Positions 8,296-18,249 of a stretch of 20,097 nucleotides of DNA are shown here, one piece after another. Position 1 is the stretch's first letter. Each line of letters starts with the position of its first letter. The stretch is from a virus, in IMG/VR virus record IMGVR_UViG_3300031396_000013, positions 1 to 20,097 of that record. One strand, 5' to 3'. Under the pieces are notes generated by a model that was not told the origin of the DNA, made no database searches, and saw only the letters and a list, made by a program, of their open reading frames with translations. The position numbers and the translations under genes were made by a program.

Positions 8296-9480
8296 TTATG
8301 AATGGAATACCGGGAGGATACCGAGAGACAGTGCAGAGGCAGCCTTACGCTTCCAAGTACCTACAACATTCGCAAGGGCATTGGTGGAAGCAGACAGCGT
8401 TTTCGGAGCGCCGGATTCAACAACATACCGATAAGCCGCATCGGAGGGAAATGCTTCTTCGCTACCTACCCAGTCGTAGCCTGCGGGAGCAAGAACATAG
8501 CCCCAGCGACGCCAGATTGCGGTCTCGCCACCACCTTGATAAGTGCCCGCTTTGCGCTCGATTTCGGTGGGCATTGGGACTGTCAAATCTTCCATTGCCA
8601 GAGCGCCCGGCATTACAATGAAGGACGTTTTGTTGCCGACAATATCAACGCCTGGACCGGTGTTCAATTTGATCAGTTCAGCTGAAGTCAGCCCTTGCGA
8701 GGCGCGAGTCTGGATCAAACGGAGTTTACCTTGAAAAATCGTGGTAAACTCGATGCTGCCGTCGCGAACACGATCAGCGTCAACCAAGTTGGCTGAACGC
8801 AAAGATGCGTAAACTTCAGGGGTAGTGATCAAGTACGCGTAGTCGGGTTCGTAGTCTTTGAACGCCATGCCCATCGCTTGCAAGAAGGACTCTGCGCGAG
8901 CAGCACCCTGAATAGCTGAGGTGGCTGCCACAACAGGAGAGTCTGACCCAAGGTCTACGTAAAAGCCGTATTTCTGTTCAGATGGATCGTTGTCAAAAGT
9001 TTGTCCACCCAGGCCTGCACTGCCACTGCCTGCTGCGACACCGTTCAGGGCCTCAGAAAGAGCAACGCCCTTGAGGACGGCCAGAACACCGTTATGCTCG
9101 TCTTGCGCTTGGGTCTCACCGAAGTCACGACCAATTTTGGCCAGACCATCGTGTTGCGTCACAACCTCTTTCATGTTAACTTTCTTCGCACCGTGTGTAC
9201 GAACAGTTTTGATGTACTTGAGGTAATCGGTGCTGTAGCTGGTAGTCTGACCCTCAGTAGCATCTGTAAGCGAAGCTACGTTGATGTTGGCTGACAATGG
9301 CTTCATCCAGCGCATTTGGCCAACAAAAGTTTCGGTCTTTTTGTCAATAAGCGGGTTACCGCCTACGATTGCAGTGCCGGAGAGCTTCCGAGCATTTGTG
9401 TACGCTTCGTCGGAGTACGCAGAGAGTGCTTCCTGCAGTACTTCGTTAGTGGCACCTGCTAGGTTAGTTTCAGCAGCCAT
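8296..9480 (-). CDS. Major capsid protein
   Basis: The protein has 394 residues; AAGGA precedes the ATG. Position is the strongest clue: it sits between the scaffold-like gene and the head-tail connector genes. The sequence fits a HK97-fold shell protein of the non-cleaved kind: an N-terminal helix (MAAETNLAGATNEVLQEALS), an arm with ETFVGQMRWMKPLSANINVA, a long helix with HNGVLAVLKGVALSEALNGV, a Gly-rich loop AAGSGSAGLGG, an A-domain-like region with DYAYLITTPEVYASL, and a C-terminal RRWGYVLAPAGYDW strand region. A 394-residue length is normal for the fold. I recognise no delta-domain cleavage site or prohead protease in the window, so maturation by proteolysis is not supported here. The exact capsid family was not identified. 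Confidence 0.87.
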   Translation of the reverse strand: MAAETNLAGATNEVLQEALSAYSDEAYTNARKLSGTAIVGGNPLIDKKTETFVGQMRWMKPLSANINVASLTDATEGQTTSYSTDYLKYIKTVRTHGAKKVNMKEVVTQHDGLAKIGRDFGETQAQDEHNGVLAVLKGVALSEALNGVAAGSGSAGLGGQTFDNDPSEQKYGFYVDLGSDSPVVAATSAIQGAARAESFLQAMGMAFKDYEPDYAYLITTPEVYASLRSANLVDADRVRDGSIEFTTIFQGKLRLIQTRASQGLTSAELIKLNTGPGVDIVGNKTSFIVMPGALAMEDLTVPMPTEIERKAGTYQGGGETAIWRRWGYVLAPAGYDWVGSEEAFPSDAAYRYVVESGAPKTLSASTNALANVVGTWKRKAASALSLGILPVFHS

Positions 9481-9491
9481 TTTTTAATTCC

Positions 9492-10190
9492 TTAACGGGG
9501 TTTAAGAGTACCCTCCTGTGCTCGCTTGATAACTTCGTCTTGACTTAGGTCAAACACGGAGCCACCTTTGCTAGAAACAGAAGACTTTGTTTGAGGACTC
9601 ATAACACCAGCACCGCTGGATTCTTTTGTCTTGAATAAGAAAGAGTTGTCATCGTCTTCGGAGAAAGATTTGACAAAGCTGCTCAGGTCGGAACCCGATT
9701 TGTGCTTCCAATTGCCATTTTCCTCTTGTACCAGTTCGCTGACAATTTCTTCGAAGGCCATCTTACGTGACTTGTCGCTTCGGAATTCTAAGCTGGCTAG
9801 CATACTGTTGACTTCCATGTTTCGGGTCAGTTCAACAATTTTGCTGTCTTTCACCTTGTCTTTTGCTTTGAATTCGTCGAGTTCGCTTTGCAGGGCTTCT
9901 GATTCTTTGCCTTGCTCACGCATTCTCTCGCGTTCTACTTCTTTGGTTTTCTGCTCATGCTCAGCAGACTGTGCCAAAGCTTCGTCACGCTTAGTGTAAG
10001 CTTCGTCAAGTTTAGCTTTGATGGGGGCTAGAGCTGCGTCCACAGCTTTCTTCAGAACATCTGCAGAAACACCGTCATCATCACCGGTTTCTTTAAGCTT
10101 TTTATCACCTTCCTCTTTTTCAAGTGCCACCTTACGGGCAGCTTCCTGCTCTTCAGCAGTTCCAGGGTCTTTTGCGTCATTCGGGTCCAT
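9492..10190 (-). CDS. Scaffold-like protein
   Basis: The gene encodes 232 residues from the ATG at 10190, chosen because AGAGGAA lies five bases upstream; an in-frame TTG at 10214 has no SD and precedes that site. The protein is strongly charged. It has a coiled coil over residues about 48-130 (with KAKLDEAYTKRDEALAQSAE), an acidic segment SFSEDDDNSF near residue 183, and a short C-terminal helix DLSQDEVIKRAQEGTLKPR. Acidic, helical proteins of this size immediately upstream of the major capsid gene are scaffolds that organise procapsid assembly and then leave; the basic C-terminal helix is often the capsid-binding part. No protease domain is seen, so this appears to be a stand-alone scaffold. 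Its stop overlaps the SD of the capsid gene. Confidence 0.85.
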   Translation of the reverse strand: MDPNDAKDPGTAEEQEAARKVALEKEEGDKKLKETGDDDGVSADVLKKAVDAALAPIKAKLDEAYTKRDEALAQSAEHEQKTKEVERERMREQGKESEALQSELDEFKAKDKVKDSKIVELTRNMEVNSMLASLEFRSDKSRKMAFEEIVSELVQEENGNWKHKSGSDLSSFVKSFSEDDDNSFLFKTKESSGAGVMSPQTKSSVSSKGGSVFDLSQDEVIKRAQEGTLKPR

Positions 10191-10436
10191 ATCGTTCCTC
10201 TGAGTACAACTCAATATTGTGAAGCACAGCTTCTTTAGTTAAACATTACTCTGCGAGGTCATTTGAATAAACCCCGCAGTATATGTTAGTTTGAAGAGAT
10301 CAACTGTTATTATTGTAAATAAATACAATGATAAAAGCTTACTTTTTCAGGGTAACGCTCAGCGTCGACCTCTTCCTTTAATTTAACGGGCTGGGGGAAG
10401 GCTTATGCGGCTTTAGGCCAGCTCACGAGTGTTCCC
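10191..10436 (-). other. Non-coding spacer between polymerase exon 2 and scaffold gene
   Basis: This 246-base stretch is the longest non-coding gap outside the intron. Read on the minus strand, it begins with a compact structured-looking segment: GGGAA just after the stop pairs with TTCCC about 35 bases later, enclosing CTC/GAG and GGC/GCC hairpins. Next is a short hairpin ACGC-TGA-GCGT (10365-10355), then an AT-rich hairpin ATTGTA/TACAAT (10329-10312). A TACAAT (5 of 6 matches to a -10 box) is present but lacks a good -35 box. A TATACT further on has only a poor -35 box at the wrong spacing. I see no T7-class promoter. The region is a plausible place for a promoter or processing signal for the highly expressed scaffold and capsid genes, but no single element is proven. 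Confidence 0.5.
10195..10201 (-). promoter_or_regulatory. Ribosome binding site that fixes the scaffold start
   Basis: AGAGGAA on the minus strand lies five bases before the ATG at 10190. It selects that ATG over the in-frame TTG at 10214, which would put this site inside the coding sequence. Confidence 0.75.
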
Positions 10437-11934
10437 TCAACCTACACCGTACCACGCGCGATCTGCGTTAAAGCCGTCCGGCACGTCTTCTAAAATGTCT
10501 AATGCTTTAAGGATATCTTCCTCCGTCATCGTTTTTCCTGCGATTTTTGACTTACCGGCAACAGGAGTCAGTCCTGACTCGATGGCCTCTTTAAGGTATT
10601 TGTCGTAAAGATCTTTCGGCAAGCCCCGAGAGCGCATCTCGTCGAGTGTCATTTTAATGACATTTTTGTCCATGACCTCGCCGTAAATCTTACGAAGAGC
10701 TTTTCTGGCTTTTGTCATTACTGCGGCGTTCGCGAAGAAAGCATCGTGGATCGTGCTTGTTGCGATATTGTTTTCTTTTCCCCACAAGTGGAACTTTTTT
10801 ACGATAACGGCATCGTTAGAGTGATTCCCGTTTACTGCGAAGGCCGTTCTCGCCTTGGTGGCGTCGGCGATGTCGTTTATGTTGCCATCGTCATTAACCA
10901 CTTGCTCCCACCATGTCGCACTGGTTTTCTGGGGTACTTGCAGGATGCTTGTCATCCAATTTCCGTCTTTGTCCTTATACCGCAGCTTTTCTTCAAACGT
11001 CTGTGTGAAATTCTGCTCAATGGTGGAGCCGTCGAAATTTACCCAAGGAACATTTGTCCATTTTTTAGGCAGCTTGTTGGCATAAAAAATCTCCACTTCG
11101 CTAAGTTTCTTCAGCTTCGCTAAGTCAAACTTGAAGTACTTTGCGCCGGTTCTTCGATCGTCGGGAGAAGGGATCCCATAGAGGAACTGCGAAAGCGATC
11201 CGTCTTTAGTCCAGAAGGGCAGTTGCTCTAGCAGTTGCTCAGAGACGGATTTGCTGGGGTTCAAGCCGAGCATCTCTGAGAGCCTTGGCGGGAGCTTGTA
11301 CTGCCCTTTCTTCTCACCGAGCACCGCGATCTTGCCTATTGTTTTCCAATCAAAGTTAGACCTCGAAGGCTTAGCACTCTTGAGAAAGTCTTCCGCCAGC
11401 CTTCCGAAGAATTTGGTGAAGTCTTTTAAGATCGGCACTTGCTCGGCTAGCTCTTCGCTCATGATTTTGGCGATTGCCTTGAAGTCATCCGGCGTAACTA
11501 CTTTGTTGTAAGACTTCGACATTTTCTCCACAAGGTCCTTTGTCTGCGAATCGAGAAACCACAGTTGTTCCATTATGTCGTCGCCGGGATCCGAGCCCTT
11601 GTTGAACACGTCTCGAACGTTGGCGCGGAGTCTCTTCATCTCAGCGACTGTGTCGGTGTCCCAATTAGGCACTCTTGCCGTACGTGCTGAAATCTCCGCC
11701 AATACAGTGTCGCGGTCAGCAGCTTTTACGACTAACGTGTCAGTGTCTTTTCCGAGAACTTTCGCGAGCTTCCCTTCAACATTAAGAATGCCTGTCCTGT
11801 CGCCGGCGCCGTAGAATGTGACCATGTTTTGCGCTTTCGCTGCCTTGCGCAAGTCTTTTTCTGTTAAGCCCAGTTTCTCGTTAAGTTTCCGGAAGCGTGG
11901 GTCGTTAAATGTCGCCGCAGCGATCTCATCGTAT
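10437..11934 (-). CDS. MuF / single-subunit RNA polymerase fusion, exon 2 (motifs B and C)
   Basis: Exon 2 starts at 11934 with the third base of the junction codon and ends at a TGA at 10437, adding 498 residues for a 1762-residue spliced product. Numbering in that product: motif B is R1293-K-A-A-K1297 with Y1305-G1306, matching the spacing of T7 R627, K631, Y639 and G640. A WVNFDG block at W1561 matches T7 HWVTPDG. Motif C is IHDAFFAN with catalytic D1661 (T7 D812), preceded by a VNGNHSND helix start like T7 VHSQDGSH. R1293 to D1661 is 368 residues, against 185 in T7, so the fingers region carries a large insertion. An apparent stand-alone ORF with a TTG start at 11852 is an artefact: no SD precedes it, it begins one residue before motif B, and the reading frame is open through the splice junction. 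Confidence 0.9.
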
Positions 11935-12889
11935 CGATTTTCTTCAGTCTTGCTCGTTAGGCAAAACCAGTTCTTTGCCGAGTTGTTACGTTAGTAGTTC
12001 TTCCAAGTTTTTCCTGAGCGCACTTGATATATTGAGCCACGATTTACTTTAAAATGCTTTGCAATCGCAGTGTCAGATTCGCCGCTACTTATCATTTTGC
12101 GAATAACAGGGATATCATCTACATTGAGACTGTTTGCCTTTTTTCTAGAGGCAATTGGAGGGATGAGATCAGGTCTGACGTGCTTCCAAGAACGTCTGTT
12201 TCGAAGGTTAGATAAGCTTCCTGCATTTATTGGAAAGTCTTTTGAAATATCAACATCTCTGTCACCACTCATCATTCTCTCTAAAATCTCTTCAACATCT
12301 TCTTCGTCAACTTTTGCCCAAGATTTTTCAGAGCCCTTTTTCATTAACCCCGTTTCATAAGCATGCTTTGTATTCTCAGAAGAAGTGACCCACTCTAGAT
12401 TCGTATAGTCATTTTCTGTTTTAATACCACTGATATGGTTTACACTATACTTGCCTTCTACCTTTTCTAAGAAAGCCTCAGCTACAAGTTTATGCACGCG
12501 AGCTGTTCTTTTAGAGGGATCATAGAGATTTACACAGAAATAACCGCCTTGGTTTAAAGTTTGACGCAAGACTCTTTCTGTTTCTAAATTTACAACTTGA
12601 CCGCAGCTTGAAATACCGTATCTAGTGTCATCTATTCTTTTAATTTGCATAATATTTTCCAGTATGTTCTCGGCAAAGAACATCTACATGTCACCATGCA
12701 GTCGAGACTATATCATCACCTTCACAGGTGTCCCGAGCTTCGAGCTCACTTGAGCCCTACGGATTTCATCCACCGTTCTGGCGGGTATATCCTAGTCGTT
12801 GAACCTTCAAACCCATTCCTGGGTAGGCTTGGCTGCTGATTATCTCTTAGAGACGTCCCAGCAATTCACGGGATTTTACAAGGCCGTAC
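11935..12889 (-). ncRNA. Group IA self-splicing intron in the RNA polymerase gene
   Basis: All core elements can be paired by eye. P1: exon AAGGCT (12895-12890) with GGCCTT (12885-12880), ending in the required U.G pair at the splice site. P3: TCCCG (12873-12869) with CGGGA (12735-12731). P4: TGCTG (12863-12859) with CAGCA (12838-12834). P5: GTCTC/GAGAT. P6a with a GGAA loop. P7: GACTA (12797-12793) with TAGTC (12710-12706). P8: CACCT-GTGA-AGGTG (12730-12717). P9 with a GTGA loop (12701-12684). P9.1: ATGTTCT/AGAACAT (12683-12664). Consensus strings AATCAGCAGCCAAGCC, GGTTCAACGACTA and GATATAGTCT are present. Extra hairpins between P7 and P3 mark subgroup IA. The HNH gene lies in the P9 periphery. 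A hairpin GGCAAA/TTTGCC (11979-11960) follows it, and the intron ends at G11935. Confidence 0.93.
11991..12650 (-). CDS. HNH homing endonuclease inside the group I intron
   Basis: I take the ATG at 12650 as the start, giving 219 residues. An upstream in-frame ATG at 12683 is buried in the perfect P9.1 stem. Residues about 1-50 match the NUMOD4-like N-terminus of phage homing enzymes (YGISSCGQVVNLETERVL, then GGYFCVNLY and VHKLVAEAFLE). The HNH motif follows with KYSVNHISGIKTENDYTNLE, then WVTSSENTKHA, keeping the catalytic His and Asn. Two C-terminal helix-turn-helix-like repeats follow, each ending SWKHV or TWKNY, and are likely DNA-binding. It should cut intron-less alleles of the polymerase gene and drive intron spread. 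Two sampled 60-base blocks (from 12241 and 12421) each contain 21 G/C bases, lower than the flanking exons, consistent with separate ancestry. The stop lies 56 bases before the intron end. Confidence 0.93.
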   Translation of the reverse strand: MQIKRIDDTRYGISSCGQVVNLETERVLRQTLNQGGYFCVNLYDPSKRTARVHKLVAEAFLEKVEGKYSVNHISGIKTENDYTNLEWVTSSENTKHAYETGLMKKGSEKSWAKVDEEDVEEILERMMSGDRDVDISKDFPINAGSLSNLRNRRSWKHVRPDLIPPIASRKKANSLNVDDIPVIRKMISSGESDTAIAKHFKVNRGSIYQVRSGKTWKNY

Positions 12890-15800
12890 AGCCTTCGCTT
12901 CTGATTTGTGGGAACTACGTTGGAAAGCTCTGCCAGTTGCTTGTTCCGAGTTGTCAAGGCAATAATCTGAGCACCGGACGAGGAGGCGTCTTGCTCCAGG
13001 GCCAAGCCTGTTTTGTAATTCACAAGATTCTCTAAATTACTATCTGAGTACACATTGGCAATTGGTTTGAGATTCGGAATGCTGGCTTCAATCTTTTCAC
13101 TAAGCTCTTCAATCAGCGCTTCTATCTCAAACCTGCCTGGGGCAATGATGCCTGCATGCTTAGCCGCCAAGTCTGCAGCTTGCCTGTTTGTTTTCAAGTA
13201 GTAAGAGCTGGCAACATCTTTAATTACAGTGTCTTCACCAAAACGTGACACTTTTAAAGCACGCTTTTGAGCTTCAATTAGCCGATAGCTCCTGTGCTGG
13301 CTGGGCACCCCTATTGCTTTTAACTGCTCCTCTACAAGCTCTCCGAGTTCTTCTACAACTTGCATTGCTAGATATTTTTGAGTGTTGCCACCACTGCGTT
13401 TTACAAATTTAGCTTTATTAGCAGCTACTTTCTCTGCACTAAATTTTTGACCGGTCTCATGATCAAACGTTTTATATGTGGCCCGCTCCCGCCTCAGTTT
13501 AGTTAGCTCAACGTCTGCAGTGTGTACCCATGGCGCAGCACCTTCAAGTGACTCGCCTTTTAATGCTCTTCGGATTATTTCTCTCTGAGACGTAAGTGCC
13601 TCGGAAGGTGTGCCCACATAGCTGGCATCGCCTTTGTTATTCACGCCCATCAGCTTAAGAAGACCGGCGACATCTTGCCTTTCACTCAACAGTGTAGTGG
13701 TTGTCGGGATACGTGCTGTCAAGAAGTCATCTATCTTTGAAGTCTCAATGGCAAACCTGAAAAACTTCCCCAACTCTTCCGCGTCAATGCTTTGCACAAT
13801 ATCCATTTCAAGAATAGCGCGAATGTCTCCGGGCTTATTCCTGCGCATATGATTGCCAATCTTAATCATATCAGGCCGAAACTTTTCGGCAATCTTCTGC
13901 CGTCCGGTGATACTCAGAGAGTTGAAACGTCCTTCAAACTTGTCGTCAAGCCCACCCAAGAAAGCACCCACCTGATCCTGAAAATTCTCAAATGCGTCTT
14001 TGCTGAAGGCGTAATCTTCGGCGGTGTTAAGGAAAGGCCTGAATGTTTCGCCCGCTTGAGGACCAATGAGCCCTCGATCATATATGCGCGCGCGGTGGTC
14101 AACAAAAGGATTATTGCTGAATGCGGTATCTTTCTTTCTCAGCCACTCCATCGCCTTTAAGCGCTCATACGCGTCCCCGCGCGAGGCCATATACTTTTTG
14201 TACTCGTTAAGAGAATTATAGTACTTTGCGTCGCCGCGATCATCCTCAAAGTATAACAGCTTTTTTGTGAAATCGTAAAAGTCACTATCAATTTTGTACT
14301 CTGCTTCTGACGCCTGGGTCATGGCATCGACGAGGCTTTGATCGACGAGGTCTTCGGGAAAATCCGAAAAGCTGGTGGTAGACGTTATTGGTATTCTGGT
14401 GTCTTCGATAAGGCCAGAAGGTTTCTTCATGAAATAAGTCTTATAGCCTTTGCGAAAAATTAGCCTGTTTCCTGGAGATATCGTACTGACACGCATGCCG
14501 ACTTCTACTTTGCGAGTCAACTTAGAATACTCCGCAACACGAGGGTCGACAATCTTAAGACTATAAGCCAGGGTGTCATAGTATGGCCCGAAATATTGGT
14601 TACTCATTCGGCTTTTCATTCGGCGCTTTTGCACTCCGAACGTTTCCATGCTATAGAGCTTGGCAGTTCTTTTAGATTCCAAGAGCTTAACACCAACGTC
14701 AAACCACTTGCGTCTGTCGCCGTTCAAGTTCGCCATGTTGTAAAGGTCACGACCAATCGCGACGGCCAGCTGATCTCTGTCTGGTGAATCAGCCAAAGCC
14801 AACCTGTGCGCAAACCTTGTGTAGAACTGCTGAAGTTTCCCCTTGTTTAACCGGCTCATGAGGACCAACGGGATTTCCGTATTCAGCATCGGAGCCAACT
14901 CGCGGGCAATCTTAGGAGCGGTCTTGTCCTCCCATAGATTCTTCGCTCGGATGTTACTCAGGAAGTTATCGTGAAGGTCGTCCAGCTGCACCGCGCCCAA
15001 CACAGGGTCAATGTAGTTGTCTTGCGTAAGCTTCTTGAGTACGTCTGAGCCCTTCCGTATCTGTGTTTCGATGGCGTCGGAAACGTTCATCACATCAAAC
15101 TTGACCTGTGCCTGGGCAACGGCTTTGAAGTTCGCCCAAGGCTCCGGATTCTTGCGGTACCGTGTGAAGACTATTCGCAAATTGTCTGAGATAACCGCTC
15201 TTTCGTTGATTCCCATGTACTCGTCGAGGGAGCTCACAAACTTATTTATAAACTCTTTGTCTTGCGGCTGTAGGTCTTCAGACGAGTCCACCAGTCTTTG
15301 AGCATTGAAAAAGACGTAAGGGTTGGGCTGGTAGAGCCTAACGTCCTCGTAACGGCTTGTCATTGGGTTGAATTTAAGCTGATCCTCCGTAGGTGGCCTT
15401 GTAAGCACAAATCGTTTAGTTCTGCGCTTATTTCCCAAAACAGCGCCTCGGTAGTTGATAAGGGACAGCGTGCCATCGAGTTCGCCCGCTTGAAGCTTGT
15501 AGTAATCGCGCAAACGGTTTTGCATCCCGACGTCACCGAGGACGTCTTCAGGGCGCGAGATACCCAAATGTATAGCATCGAGTTTCCTTTTTGCGTTGGC
15601 AAACTTGATAGTGTCGTTCGGCGCCGTAAATTCAGAGTCCGTCAGCTGACGAAGGCCCCTGATGCCCACCGAGTTACCTTTCGAGTTGTAAAACTTACTG
15701 CCTTCTAGCTGGCCTTTATTGAATAGATCGACAGACTCAGAGCTTCCTAAGTGCCTCAGCTGTACTTCAAGAGTCTGCCGCTTCAGCCAACCGTCGTAGG

Positions 15801-16680
15801 TTTCACCAAGCGGTGCTCGCCCTTCGTAGTAGCGTAACTGAGAAGGCGTGAGCTTTGAGATATTGCGCTTTCGGACTTGGGCGACGTTCTCCAGAGAAGC
15901 CAGGTCTGCCCAATTTTTGAAAACAGGGGTGGTGGTCGACCGACAGTAGAAATGCGCGGGAGGCAGGTGTTTGTAGTCACCTACGGCATATACGTGAGTG
16001 TCGCGGTGAATGCAAATCTTAGTGGTTCGACCGTCAATGAGGGCAACATACTGCCAACCGTCCAGGCCGTCCGCGTTAGCCTCGTAAACAGCTTGGTCGG
16101 CTTGCGCGTTGACCGATGTCATCGCTGTAACCACAAGCGCATTGGAATTATTCCGAGTGATTTTATGAACACTCCCGGTACGCACCTCTTTGGCGATTTC
16201 TGCTGCGCCTTTACTTTGCGAGATACCCTTGCGGATCACCCCCTCAAGTCGCCGCTTCTCGCTCATACGCACGTTGTTCCACGCGGGCGCTAAGGCGCGG
16301 TTGCCTGCCAGGGGCTGCTTCAGCACCACGTCCTCGCCGACGGCTCTCGTGGCCTTTTTAGTGCGCCAGATGCCTGAAGTCGCAGACTCCAAACTTTGCC
16401 GCGTGTAACTCATCTGGTCATGCACAAGGCTCAGAAGAGAACGCTTTGTTGTCTGATACATTGTTTTGTAAGTTCTGATAAGCTCTTCGTCAAGCGCATC
16501 TCGTAGCCGGTTAAAGCCTTTGGTCGAAAGACTTGCTTCACGGAGCAACTTATCAACACGAAGCTCATGACCGTCCAGCGTAAGGAAAACTTTCCCTTCA
16601 ACATTTTTCTCATACCGGCGGAGCATCGCGGCTCTGTCGATTGATCTATCATACATCTGTTCGTTTGCTGAAACGGCCAT
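12890..16680 (-). CDS. MuF minor-head / single-subunit RNA polymerase fusion, exon 1
   Basis: Start ATG at 16680, SD GAGG, 9 bases after the portal stop. Exon 1 encodes 1263 residues plus two bases of the next codon. The MuF/SPP1 gp7 domain lies at about residues 130-260, with D216-G-R-T-T-K-I-C223 and P240-P-A-H-F-Y-C-R-S248, the family's conserved D..T..C and P..H..CRS motifs. Residues about 290-850 are not assigned. The polymerase part begins near residue 850: D861-H-R-A-R865 followed by LIGPQAG matches the T7 DWRGRVY...FNPQG block, and D1231-A-S-S-S-G-A-Q matches motif A (T7 D537). If the intron is not removed, translation runs 14 codons on and stops at 12847 (1277 residues), giving MuF plus an incomplete polymerase. 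Inferred role: capsid-internal polymerase at the portal. Family calls rest on motif recall. Confidence 0.9.
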
Positions 16681-16689
16681 GACTGCCTC

Positions 16690-18249
16690 TTACTTTTCTA
16701 GATTAGTTTTATCATCCGTAGCGCCTTCACTGCCAGAGAGGATCAGCTCATCATCGTTGATTTCTTGCTGACCTTCCTCGTCGTTGTACTCTCCCGAGAG
16801 CATGTCGTTTTGCTTCAAGAGGTTTAACCAGATCTTGCGTGGGATGAGCCCTAACTGATACCATTCAGTAGCCAGCCTTAGCCAGTCTACACCAATTTGT
16901 CCTGTTTCAAAGTCAGCGGACATTGTAAATGAAACATCTTTCGCGGCAACCTCGACACCATAGCGCCACTCCAGCATAAACGCAATAATCTGCCGCAGAG
17001 TGTTACTGACTTGGACATTCAGTGAGCCAAGTTGCGCTGTTTGTGCGGCGTTGCGAATCATCAGAGCAACACCTGACTGCGCGTTCTCGGGCGCGAGGAT
17101 GCGGATACCGAGCCTGGCCATCTCCTCGATAGCGGCGGCGATGGTCTTTTCCATGTCTTCCAGAGCGTCACTAGGGGTTGCCAGCACACCGATGGAGTCG
17201 TCTTGATCAAGGCGTATCCATGTGCCCAGGCCTTTGCTCACAACTTCTTCAAACTCTTCCGTGTTCATGTCTGAAGCGATCCACGGTGTAAACGTTGAGG
17301 CCCCGTACATAAGATGGTTTCGCCGGCTGACCTTGTTGTAGAGCGCGACTTCTTTGTCAACAAGTGGCGTCACAAACGGCTCACGCGGAGTGTAATCCCC
17401 ATTCAGAGGCCAGGCGGGGATGTACTTAAGCTTCTCGCCGTTTTTTGTCAGGTTATCTTGCGTCTTGTCCAGTTTAAAAGTCTTTCCGGAGCCTTCAGGA
17501 TTGTACTGAACTTGGCCGTTCACGGTTTCGCGCTGAGCTTCACCGGCTTCAGTGTAAGTTCGAATCCGGTAAGACCCTTCGGGGTCAATGTCATGGACCC
17601 AGACTGTCTCAATTAGCTCCGGATGGAATGTATCGTCGTCTTCAAACACTTCTTGATAGCCCCGAACGATAACGTGCTTTAAAGTTTCTTGGCCATACAC
17701 GTCCGTGACTGTCCTGACGTTTATTACTGTTTCCGCCGGCCAGATAACTGGGGAAGGTCTGTATTTCAGCTTTTCTTCTCGAGTCAAGTCTGCGGCGTTT
17801 GGGACTTCGGGGTACCCAACGTAAATCCACGTGTTGTCAGTCTTCATTTCTTCCCACAGAGCGTCTTTCAAAAATGCTGTGATGGGGGAATTGTCAGTGC
17901 CAAACTCTTCTAAAATCCAAGCCGTGGCGTCTTTGGGGACGTTGGCAGGAAGCTCCAAAGCGGGTTGCTTTCGCAGCAAAGAGCCGATTAACATCTTTGC
18001 AAATTGCGACACAATGCCAGGAAGCTCTGCCTCGGCTTTGAAAAAGCTGTATTGTTGCTGAGTCATGCTGGGTGAAAAGGGGATCAGCATATTTGAGTAA
18101 CTGACCGCGTCAAGCAGCCGGTCTTTCTCTTTAACGTACTGCTCCCCACCACAGACGGCATGATTTTTGTCCCAAATCGGTTTAAGCGACTCGTAAGCAT
18201 CGGTAGGATCGCCTACGTTTTTTGGGTTAACTCCGGATAAAATTGCCAT
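16690..18249 (-). CDS. Portal protein (DUF4055-type)
   Basis: The protein has 519 residues; its ATG is preceded by GAGGACAAT (SD GAGG). It should form the dodecameric ring at the capsid vertex through which DNA is packaged and ejected, and on which the neck is built. The pattern matches the DUF4055 portal family: an N-terminal segment with repeated aromatic residues and LIGSLLRKQP at about residue 90, a central part with ILAPENAQSGVALMIRNAAQ near residue 386, and a long helix after it (LGSLNVQVSNTLRQIIAFML) typical of the portal crown/stem. The C-terminal 30 residues are acidic and low-complexity. It lies immediately upstream of the MuF-class minor head gene, with a gap of 9 bases, which is the conserved portal-MuF order of many phages. 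Confidence 0.88.
   Translation of the reverse strand: MAILSGVNPKNVGDPTDAYESLKPIWDKNHAVCGGEQYVKEKDRLLDAVSYSNMLIPFSPSMTQQQYSFFKAEAELPGIVSQFAKMLIGSLLRKQPALELPANVPKDATAWILEEFGTDNSPITAFLKDALWEEMKTDNTWIYVGYPEVPNAADLTREEKLKYRPSPVIWPAETVINVRTVTDVYGQETLKHVIVRGYQEVFEDDDTFHPELIETVWVHDIDPEGSYRIRTYTEAGEAQRETVNGQVQYNPEGSGKTFKLDKTQDNLTKNGEKLKYIPAWPLNGDYTPREPFVTPLVDKEVALYNKVSRRNHLMYGASTFTPWIASDMNTEEFEEVVSKGLGTWIRLDQDDSIGVLATPSDALEDMEKTIAAAIEEMARLGIRILAPENAQSGVALMIRNAAQTAQLGSLNVQVSNTLRQIIAFMLEWRYGVEVAAKDVSFTMSADFETGQIGVDWLRLATEWYQLGLIPRKIWLNLLKQNDMLSGEYNDEEGQQEINDDELILSGSEGATDDKTNLEK

Follow-up and report, generated by a model that had tools for sequence, protein, structure and literature searches.

The question raised by the locus described here is whether a long-tailed phage could carry an RNA polymerase (RNAP) in its head as part of a minor head protein. 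The DNA analyzed, hereafter the window, is 20,097 nucleotides (nt) long (positions 1 to 20,097 of IMG/VR record IMGVR_UViG_3300031396_000013) and is probably a fragment of a virus genome. It encodes a protein of 1762 amino acids (aa), MuF-RNAP, that combines an N-terminal MuF domain with a C-terminal single-subunit RNAP (ssRNAP). An initial annotation had placed this fusion at 10437-16680, which is correct, and all the residue numbers that it gave for the motifs are exact (D861-R865, D1231, R1293/K1297/Y1305/G1306, W1561, and H1660-D1661). Its description as one gene holds in that a single spliced protein is encoded; the gene, however, is on the minus strand, and its exons become one reading frame through splicing alone. 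The fusion is not unique to the window and is common to a large group of viruses that includes isolated roseophages.

A MuF Domain Joined to an RNA Polymerase

The polymerase half carries the motifs of single-subunit enzymes, all encoded on the minus strand: the DxxxR motif D861HRAR865 (14086..14100), which corresponds to DxxGR at residues 421-425 of T7 RNAP with alanine in place of the T7 glycine, and, located by sequence and alignment, motif A (D1231ASSSGAQ, 12967..12990), motif B (R1293-KAA-K1297-...-Y1305-G1306, 11808..11849) and motif C (H1660-D1661, 10743..10748). The sequence W1561VNFDG is also present. Our alignment of 45 sequences, which included EBPR siphovirus 1 and DSS3_VP1 and reached down to ~30% identity to the window protein, showed that D861, R865, D1231, S1233, G1236, K1297, Y1305, G1306, H1660 and D1661 are invariant (45/45), while R1293 is kept in 44/45 and W1561 in 41/45. 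The residues that define activity are thus retained in the homologues, R1293 being the single departure. The ratio of nonsynonymous to synonymous substitution rates (dN/dS) of the polymerase half was 0.04-0.10 in the pairs that allowed an estimate, and this half is under purifying selection.

A phmmer search of exon 2 against the Protein Data Bank (PDB) returned nothing useful, and a profile, itself weak by sequence alone, was required. The phrog_414 profile (RNA polymerase) matched aa 1220-1312 with 73.6 bits, and PF00940 matched exon 2 with 28.4 bits (cut-off 22). In profile comparisons, DHRAR and motif A aligned with T7 (E 4e-4), motif B aligned with N4 (E 0.05), and motif C aligned with a second RNAP encoded by the same phages (E 0.002). 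An AlphaFold2 model was built for the homologue L020 from ~aa 350 to the end (predicted local distance difference test score (pLDDT) 69, predicted template modeling score (pTM) 0.65). Foldseek retrieved mitochondrial and T7 RNA polymerases with this model (E 1e-12 to 3e-15), and VIA-align gave Z scores of 24.2 (541 residues, 5.3 Å) and 24.1 (518 residues, 4.1 Å) against T7 RNAP and 17.2 (496 residues, 5.0 Å) against the mini virion RNAP (vRNAP) of N4. The sequence identity in the T7 fold alignment was merely 15-18%, and the RNAP fold of L020 spans ~aa 565 to the chain end. According to the model, the C-terminal half has the cupped-right-hand fold of a single-subunit RNAP. Profiles, conservation and predicted fold all agree with the complete polymerase core that had been proposed from the motifs.

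The MuF, or SPP1 gp7, domain occupies aa 147-254 (15919..16242, minus strand). It was recognized by TIGR01641 (SPP1_gp7, 51.8 bits, cut-off 39.65) and PF04233 (34.4 bits, cut-off 29.6), and by phrog_241 (head morphogenesis), whose match of 213 bits across aa 1-352 is wider than the domain; the initial assignment of this domain is therefore upheld. Residues D216, C223, P240, C246 and S248 do not vary in the 45 aligned sequences. The fusion was the sole MuF gene in each of the six large relatives examined, so any essential MuF role requires the fusion. In Pelagibacter and Pseudanabaena phages, more distant MuF proteins end in different, shorter C-termini.

A scan of IMG/VR uncovered 359 relatives of exon 2, from which 80 loci were retained. 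At least 42 of these encode MuF and polymerase together in one uninterrupted open reading frame (ORF) of ~1540-1700 aa. The roseophages DSS3_VP1 and DSS3_PM1 (Naomviridae) have a single 1463-aa fusion gene after the portal gene, labeled "head morphogenesis" or "minor head protein-like protein" with the polymerase half unnamed in the records, and gp47-gp49 of EBPR siphovirus 1, annotated as head or hypothetical proteins, are homologous to the fusion. The search for MuF-ssRNAP fusions elsewhere was thus productive, with protein lengths ranging over 1463-1762 aa. The last 365 residues found no further relatives in 50,697 phage records, and among the 84,980 species genomes scanned two contigs only were matched (a phage contig and a fragment), both from one metagenome-assembled genome (MAG). 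The larger of the two equals in length an IMG/VR record (74,179 bp) already in our set. This result led us to reject a prophage or host gene. As there were no other relatives in the phage records and just one MAG in the species genomes, the fusion-bearing viruses look like a group of lytic phages. The MAG contig itself (L090, JAOUJT010000001.1) is a 74,179-bp phage contig binned into a gammaproteobacterial MAG, which is poor evidence of a host.

A Second Polymerase, Promoter-Like Motifs and the Proposed Cascade

An ordinary T7-like second RNAP (RNAP2) was encoded in 27/27 of the large relatives checked (at least 49.8 kb: eight records, DSS3_VP1 and 18 others), the partial record of EBPR siphovirus 1 being set apart. 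It is mostly ~733-786 aa long, scores 209-272 bits with PF00940, and is split or enlarged in five records. Two promoter-like motifs accompany it. The first, class L, reads CCCGTTAAATTAACCC; all 33 copies (at most one mismatch) in eight records are on the coding strand. Its core has 52 coding-strand copies versus 0 antisense copies across 804 kb of partly overlapping loci, and follows the fusion gene within 300 nt in 36/65 loci. The window has it, as CCCGTTAAATTAA, at 10378..10390 (minus strand), 47 nt beyond the MuF-RNAP stop, a position conserved in relatives. The second motif, class E, reads GCG-N9-GTATCTTATATGA; in eight records, the coding strand holds 19 exact copies of its 13-base core and the opposite strand 0, with at least one copy 2.0-6.0 kb upstream of the RNAP2 core domain in 8/8. 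A short hairpin of variable sequence stands directly after most of these 19 sites (mean z -2.6; P 0.008 versus a local control) in an arrangement that differs from the N4 layout, and no recurring N4-like hairpin families were seen in intergenic DNA.

In a gene-blind test, the class E pattern alone was scanned through IMG/VR and more than 100 viral stretches were among the matches listed; the counts that follow concern these listed matches. All 18 new records of at least 60 kb found in this way encode the MuF-RNAP fusion (18/18), and 18/18 encode RNAP2. All their exact class E cores (44/44) are on the coding strand of the fusion, and the reversed control of the pattern had no match in the 18 records. 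Class L was also present in 15/18, always on the fusion's coding strand. Class E lies ~6 kb or less upstream of RNAP2 in 17/18 (coordinates read by eye); three of those 17 hold only with the record taken as circular, and G021 is the exception. Overall, class E was found 2-6 kb ahead of RNAP2, and on the coding strand only, in 25/26 records. The two coding-strand-only motifs, CCCGTTAAATTAACCC and GCG-N9-GTATCTTATATGA, also mark a large phage group in their own right (intergenic regions of G001-G032).

DSS3_VP1 has a motif of its own, GTGAGAAAACTAAGGCATCTATAATGA, whose copies at 35.8 and 36.3 kb precede its RNAP (42.4 kb). A second set, of ATAGGGTGCGTTAAAGAGGGGG-like sites, has 13 coding-strand copies. 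Between positions 2248 and 59202 of this phage (L004/L108), 13 ATAGG[GT]TGCGTTAAAGAGGGGG-like sites were noted on the coding strand, several of them followed by G/C-rich inverted repeats; these are probably the promoters of one of its two RNAPs.

N4 packages its vRNAP in four copies, which lie above the portal; once injected, the enzyme makes early RNAs that encode RNAPII (PMC4496689). Were an injected polymerase to start the programme, one would expect an RNAP2 whose operon is headed by a promoter-like motif of its own. The presence of RNAP2 and of two motif classes, together with the finding of the fusion in 18/18 contigs retrieved by class E, supports an N4-like programme. We therefore consider it fairly probable that MuF-RNAP is a MuF-tethered virion polymerase that is injected and reads a class E early operon including RNAP2, which then reads class L. 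In this model, the N-terminal ~350 residues (MuF, SPP1-gp7 type) would bring a small number of copies into the prohead, close to the portal, and the C-terminal ~1000-1200 residues would form an active DNA-dependent ssRNAP of the T7/N4 fold. At infection, MuF-RNAP would exit the capsid with the DNA via the tail, presumably crossing it unfolded, and would use class E promoters (GCG-N9-GTATCTTATATGA) to transcribe the early operon. One presumed early product would be RNAP2, a free T7-like RNAP, which could then read class L promoters (CCCGTTAAATTAACCC) before later operons, the capsid genes among them.

Several points weigh against this model. The strongest objection is that a protein of ~170-200 kDa must pass a long, narrow tail, a passage that has been raised as a question for the giant enzyme of N4 too (PMC12633501). 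Packaging, injection, activity and the pairing of each polymerase with a motif are steps that we infer. Neither RNAP2 nor class E was seen in the partial 54-kb record of EBPR siphovirus 1, nor did the 20-kb window fragment show an RNAP2 or class E sites of its own. The L020 model of the polymerase part is only moderate in confidence, and the AlphaFold2 model of the N-terminal 720 residues has low confidence (pLDDT 64.7, pTM 0.40) and gave no informative match in a PDB comparison, so that the MuF assignment stands on sequence profiles.

Among the alternatives, the one that survives best, with a small share of the probability, is that the polymerase is active and is not injected. MuF would recruit it to proheads, it would work late in the cell, for instance in late transcription or at the portal while DNA is packaged, and the host RNAP would read the early genes. 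The location of the MuF-RNAP gene within the late structural block fits this idea, and a long tail would seem a hard path for such a protein. However, the free RNAP2 is already there for later genes, and class E consists of 13 exact bases across genomes of unrelated GC content with a spacing that, by our own reading, is unlike that of host sigma-70 promoters. MuF proteins are, moreover, capsid proteins for which injected cargo is proposed in passages of PMC5512222.

Slightly less probable is a swapped assignment, where the injected MuF-RNAP reads class L and the host RNAP or RNAP2 reads class E. Class E holds an A/T-rich TATAT stretch, and sites of the two classes are frequently near one another, as one might expect in that case. 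Yet it is class E, not class L, that consistently precedes the RNAP2 operon, and the TTGCG-TATATG distance of ~14 nt is, as we read the sequence, short for sigma-70. A third alternative, which we regard as improbable, is injection for some other task, such as pulling in the genome by transcription or making replication primers, instead of early expression. The N4 vRNAP takes part in genome injection as well (PMC4496689), but such a task leaves unexplained why class E sites precede the RNAP2 operon and is compatible with injection of MuF-RNAP for early transcription. Finally, the idea that the fusion is a chimera of assembly, or an inactive remnant in decay, can be dismissed almost entirely. 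The window gene is indeed interrupted and requires splicing, but 42 other contigs and the isolates DSS3_VP1 and DSS3_PM1 have uninterrupted ORFs, which refute an artefact, EBPR siphovirus 1 reproduces the junction, and invariant catalytic residues together with dN/dS values typical of purifying selection reject a dead polymerase.

MuF-RNAP thus most likely works like a vRNAP. The wider proposal, namely that a widespread group of phages with long tails evolved, apart from N4, a head-tethered virion RNAP that is delivered on a MuF protein of the portal vertex and uses a separate promoter class to turn on RNAP2, making the start of infection independent of the host RNAP, is one we also favor, with somewhat less assurance.

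Intron, Insertions and Gene Neighborhood

The MuF-RNAP gene runs from 16680 to 10437 on the minus strand in two exons. Exon 1 (12890..16680), which encodes aa 1-1263 and ends two bases into codon 1264, is homologous to the uninterrupted genes; exon 2 (10437..11934), which bears the PF00940 match, continues from the remainder of codon 1264 to the stop. The spliced reading frame has a single stop, at its end. Between the exons lies a 955-nt group I intron (11935..12889, minus strand; RF00028, 68.3 bits), whose ends were set from the sequence and from EBPR siphovirus 1. The splice boundaries read ...AAGGCT/GTACGGCC...AAAATCG/ATACGAT..., the guide GGCCUU pairs with the 5' exon AAGGCU, forming a U.G pair at the splice site, and the last base of the intron is G. 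Profile matches identify an intron-encoded HNH homing endonuclease (NUMOD4 + HNH_3) at 11991..12683 on the minus strand. The splice was confirmed by EBPR siphovirus 1 (57% identical), which is uninterrupted at this junction and continuous across it (KKRLYDEIAAR).

Exon 2 begins at the window's position in L006-L008, L036 and L054, and an intron at that position was confirmed with Rfam in L008 and L036. In EBPR siphovirus 1, a separate interruption, again with an HNH gene, falls elsewhere, within motif B (NMV/TFYG). The polymerase part is a hot spot for interruptions, with the window intron and its HNH gene and the other site in EBPR siphovirus 1 (L003, ~15190-16039). The gene is also in several pieces in G015, split near motif B in G019 and G030, and split near the C-terminus in G025.

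Directly before motif A, the window protein has an extra domain of ~220 aa (aa ~988-1210, 13051..13719, minus strand) that is missing in most relatives. Neither PHROG nor Pfam, at the family cut-offs, gave a match to it, and an intein was dropped as its identity by eye, as no splice-junction residues were seen. The same site takes differing, apparently unrelated inserts of ~100-220 aa in the window, L046, L071/L077 and L084, and for those of L046, L071 and L084 the only matches were PHROGs of unknown function. Long additional stretches at other places in the polymerase half occur in several other relatives (G017, G023, G029 and G032).

The portal gene (16690..18249, minus strand; phrog_145, 178.6 bits; DUF4055) adjoins MuF-RNAP upstream at a distance of 9 nt, in agreement with the initial annotation. 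Downstream are a scaffold-like gene (9492..10214, minus strand), named from its position and its charged, helical-looking sequence only, and the major head protein gene (8296..9480, minus strand; phrog_247, 65.9 bits). The minus-strand order is portal, MuF-RNAP, scaffold-like gene, major head protein, then head-tail and tail genes, which places MuF-RNAP between the portal and major head protein genes. A very long gene at the tape-measure position runs past the window end.

Comparison with Known Systems

No described system with this architecture was known to the initial annotation, and we found no publication on MuF-RNAP in a search not extending to the Naomviridae paper (Rihtman 2021), so earlier recognition is possible. 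In the literature covered, virion-carried single-chain polymerases are so far mainly those of N4 and its relatives (Schitoviridae), where the enzyme is a giant dedicated protein. Domain fusion to MuF would be a simple route for packaging an enzyme in long-tailed phages, and MuF-RNAP is relevant to the unsolved problem of the passage of large proteins through a phage tail. If the proposed model is true, these phages use a two-polymerase cascade that needs no host RNA polymerase at its start. Their putative promoter, with 16 fixed bases, lends itself to testing, DSS3_VP1, a phage of Ruegeria pomeroyi, can serve as an isolated model, and the polymerase might become a new tool.

The likeness to N4 gp50 lies in the single-subunit RNAP fold (Z 17), in a gene placed among virion genes and in the presence of a second phage ssRNAP; like gp50, MuF-RNAP would be carried in the head to read early genes. 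However, gp50 has ~3500 aa with its own N- and C-terminal domains and no MuF, whereas MuF-RNAP has 1463-1762 aa and an N-terminal MuF. Motif C of gp50 is without the HD that MuF-RNAP has, N4 is a podovirus whereas the MuF-RNAP phages are long-tailed, and N4 RNAPII is a heterodimer (PMC4496689) whereas RNAP2 is mostly one chain. On its architecture (no ~3500-aa chain, neither N4 terminal domain, HD in motif C), MuF-RNAP was not assigned to the N4-type vRNAP family, and T7 fits better (Z 24 versus 17). With T7 and mitochondrial RNAPs, the polymerase half shares the fold (Z 24), DxxxR, the aspartate of motif A, K...YG of motif B and HD of motif C; T7 RNAP, in contrast, is a free enzyme made after infection and is not fused to a head protein.

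The N-terminal domain resembles SPP1 gp7 and Mu gpF, with scores above curated cut-offs and a gene that follows the portal gene. Known MuF proteins are, however, short or have other C-termini, and the RNAP adds ~1200 residues. The polyvalent and effector fusions of MuF described in parts of Iyer et al. 2017 (PMC5512222) have, like MuF-RNAP, an enzymatic domain C-terminal to MuF and a place in the head operon, and delivery of the fused enzymes to the host is proposed there; in those parts, phage RNAP is treated as a separate N4 family and not as a MuF fusion. The closest counterparts are DSS3_VP1, DSS3_PM1 and EBPR siphovirus 1, whose full-length homologues share both the architecture and the gene order of MuF-RNAP.

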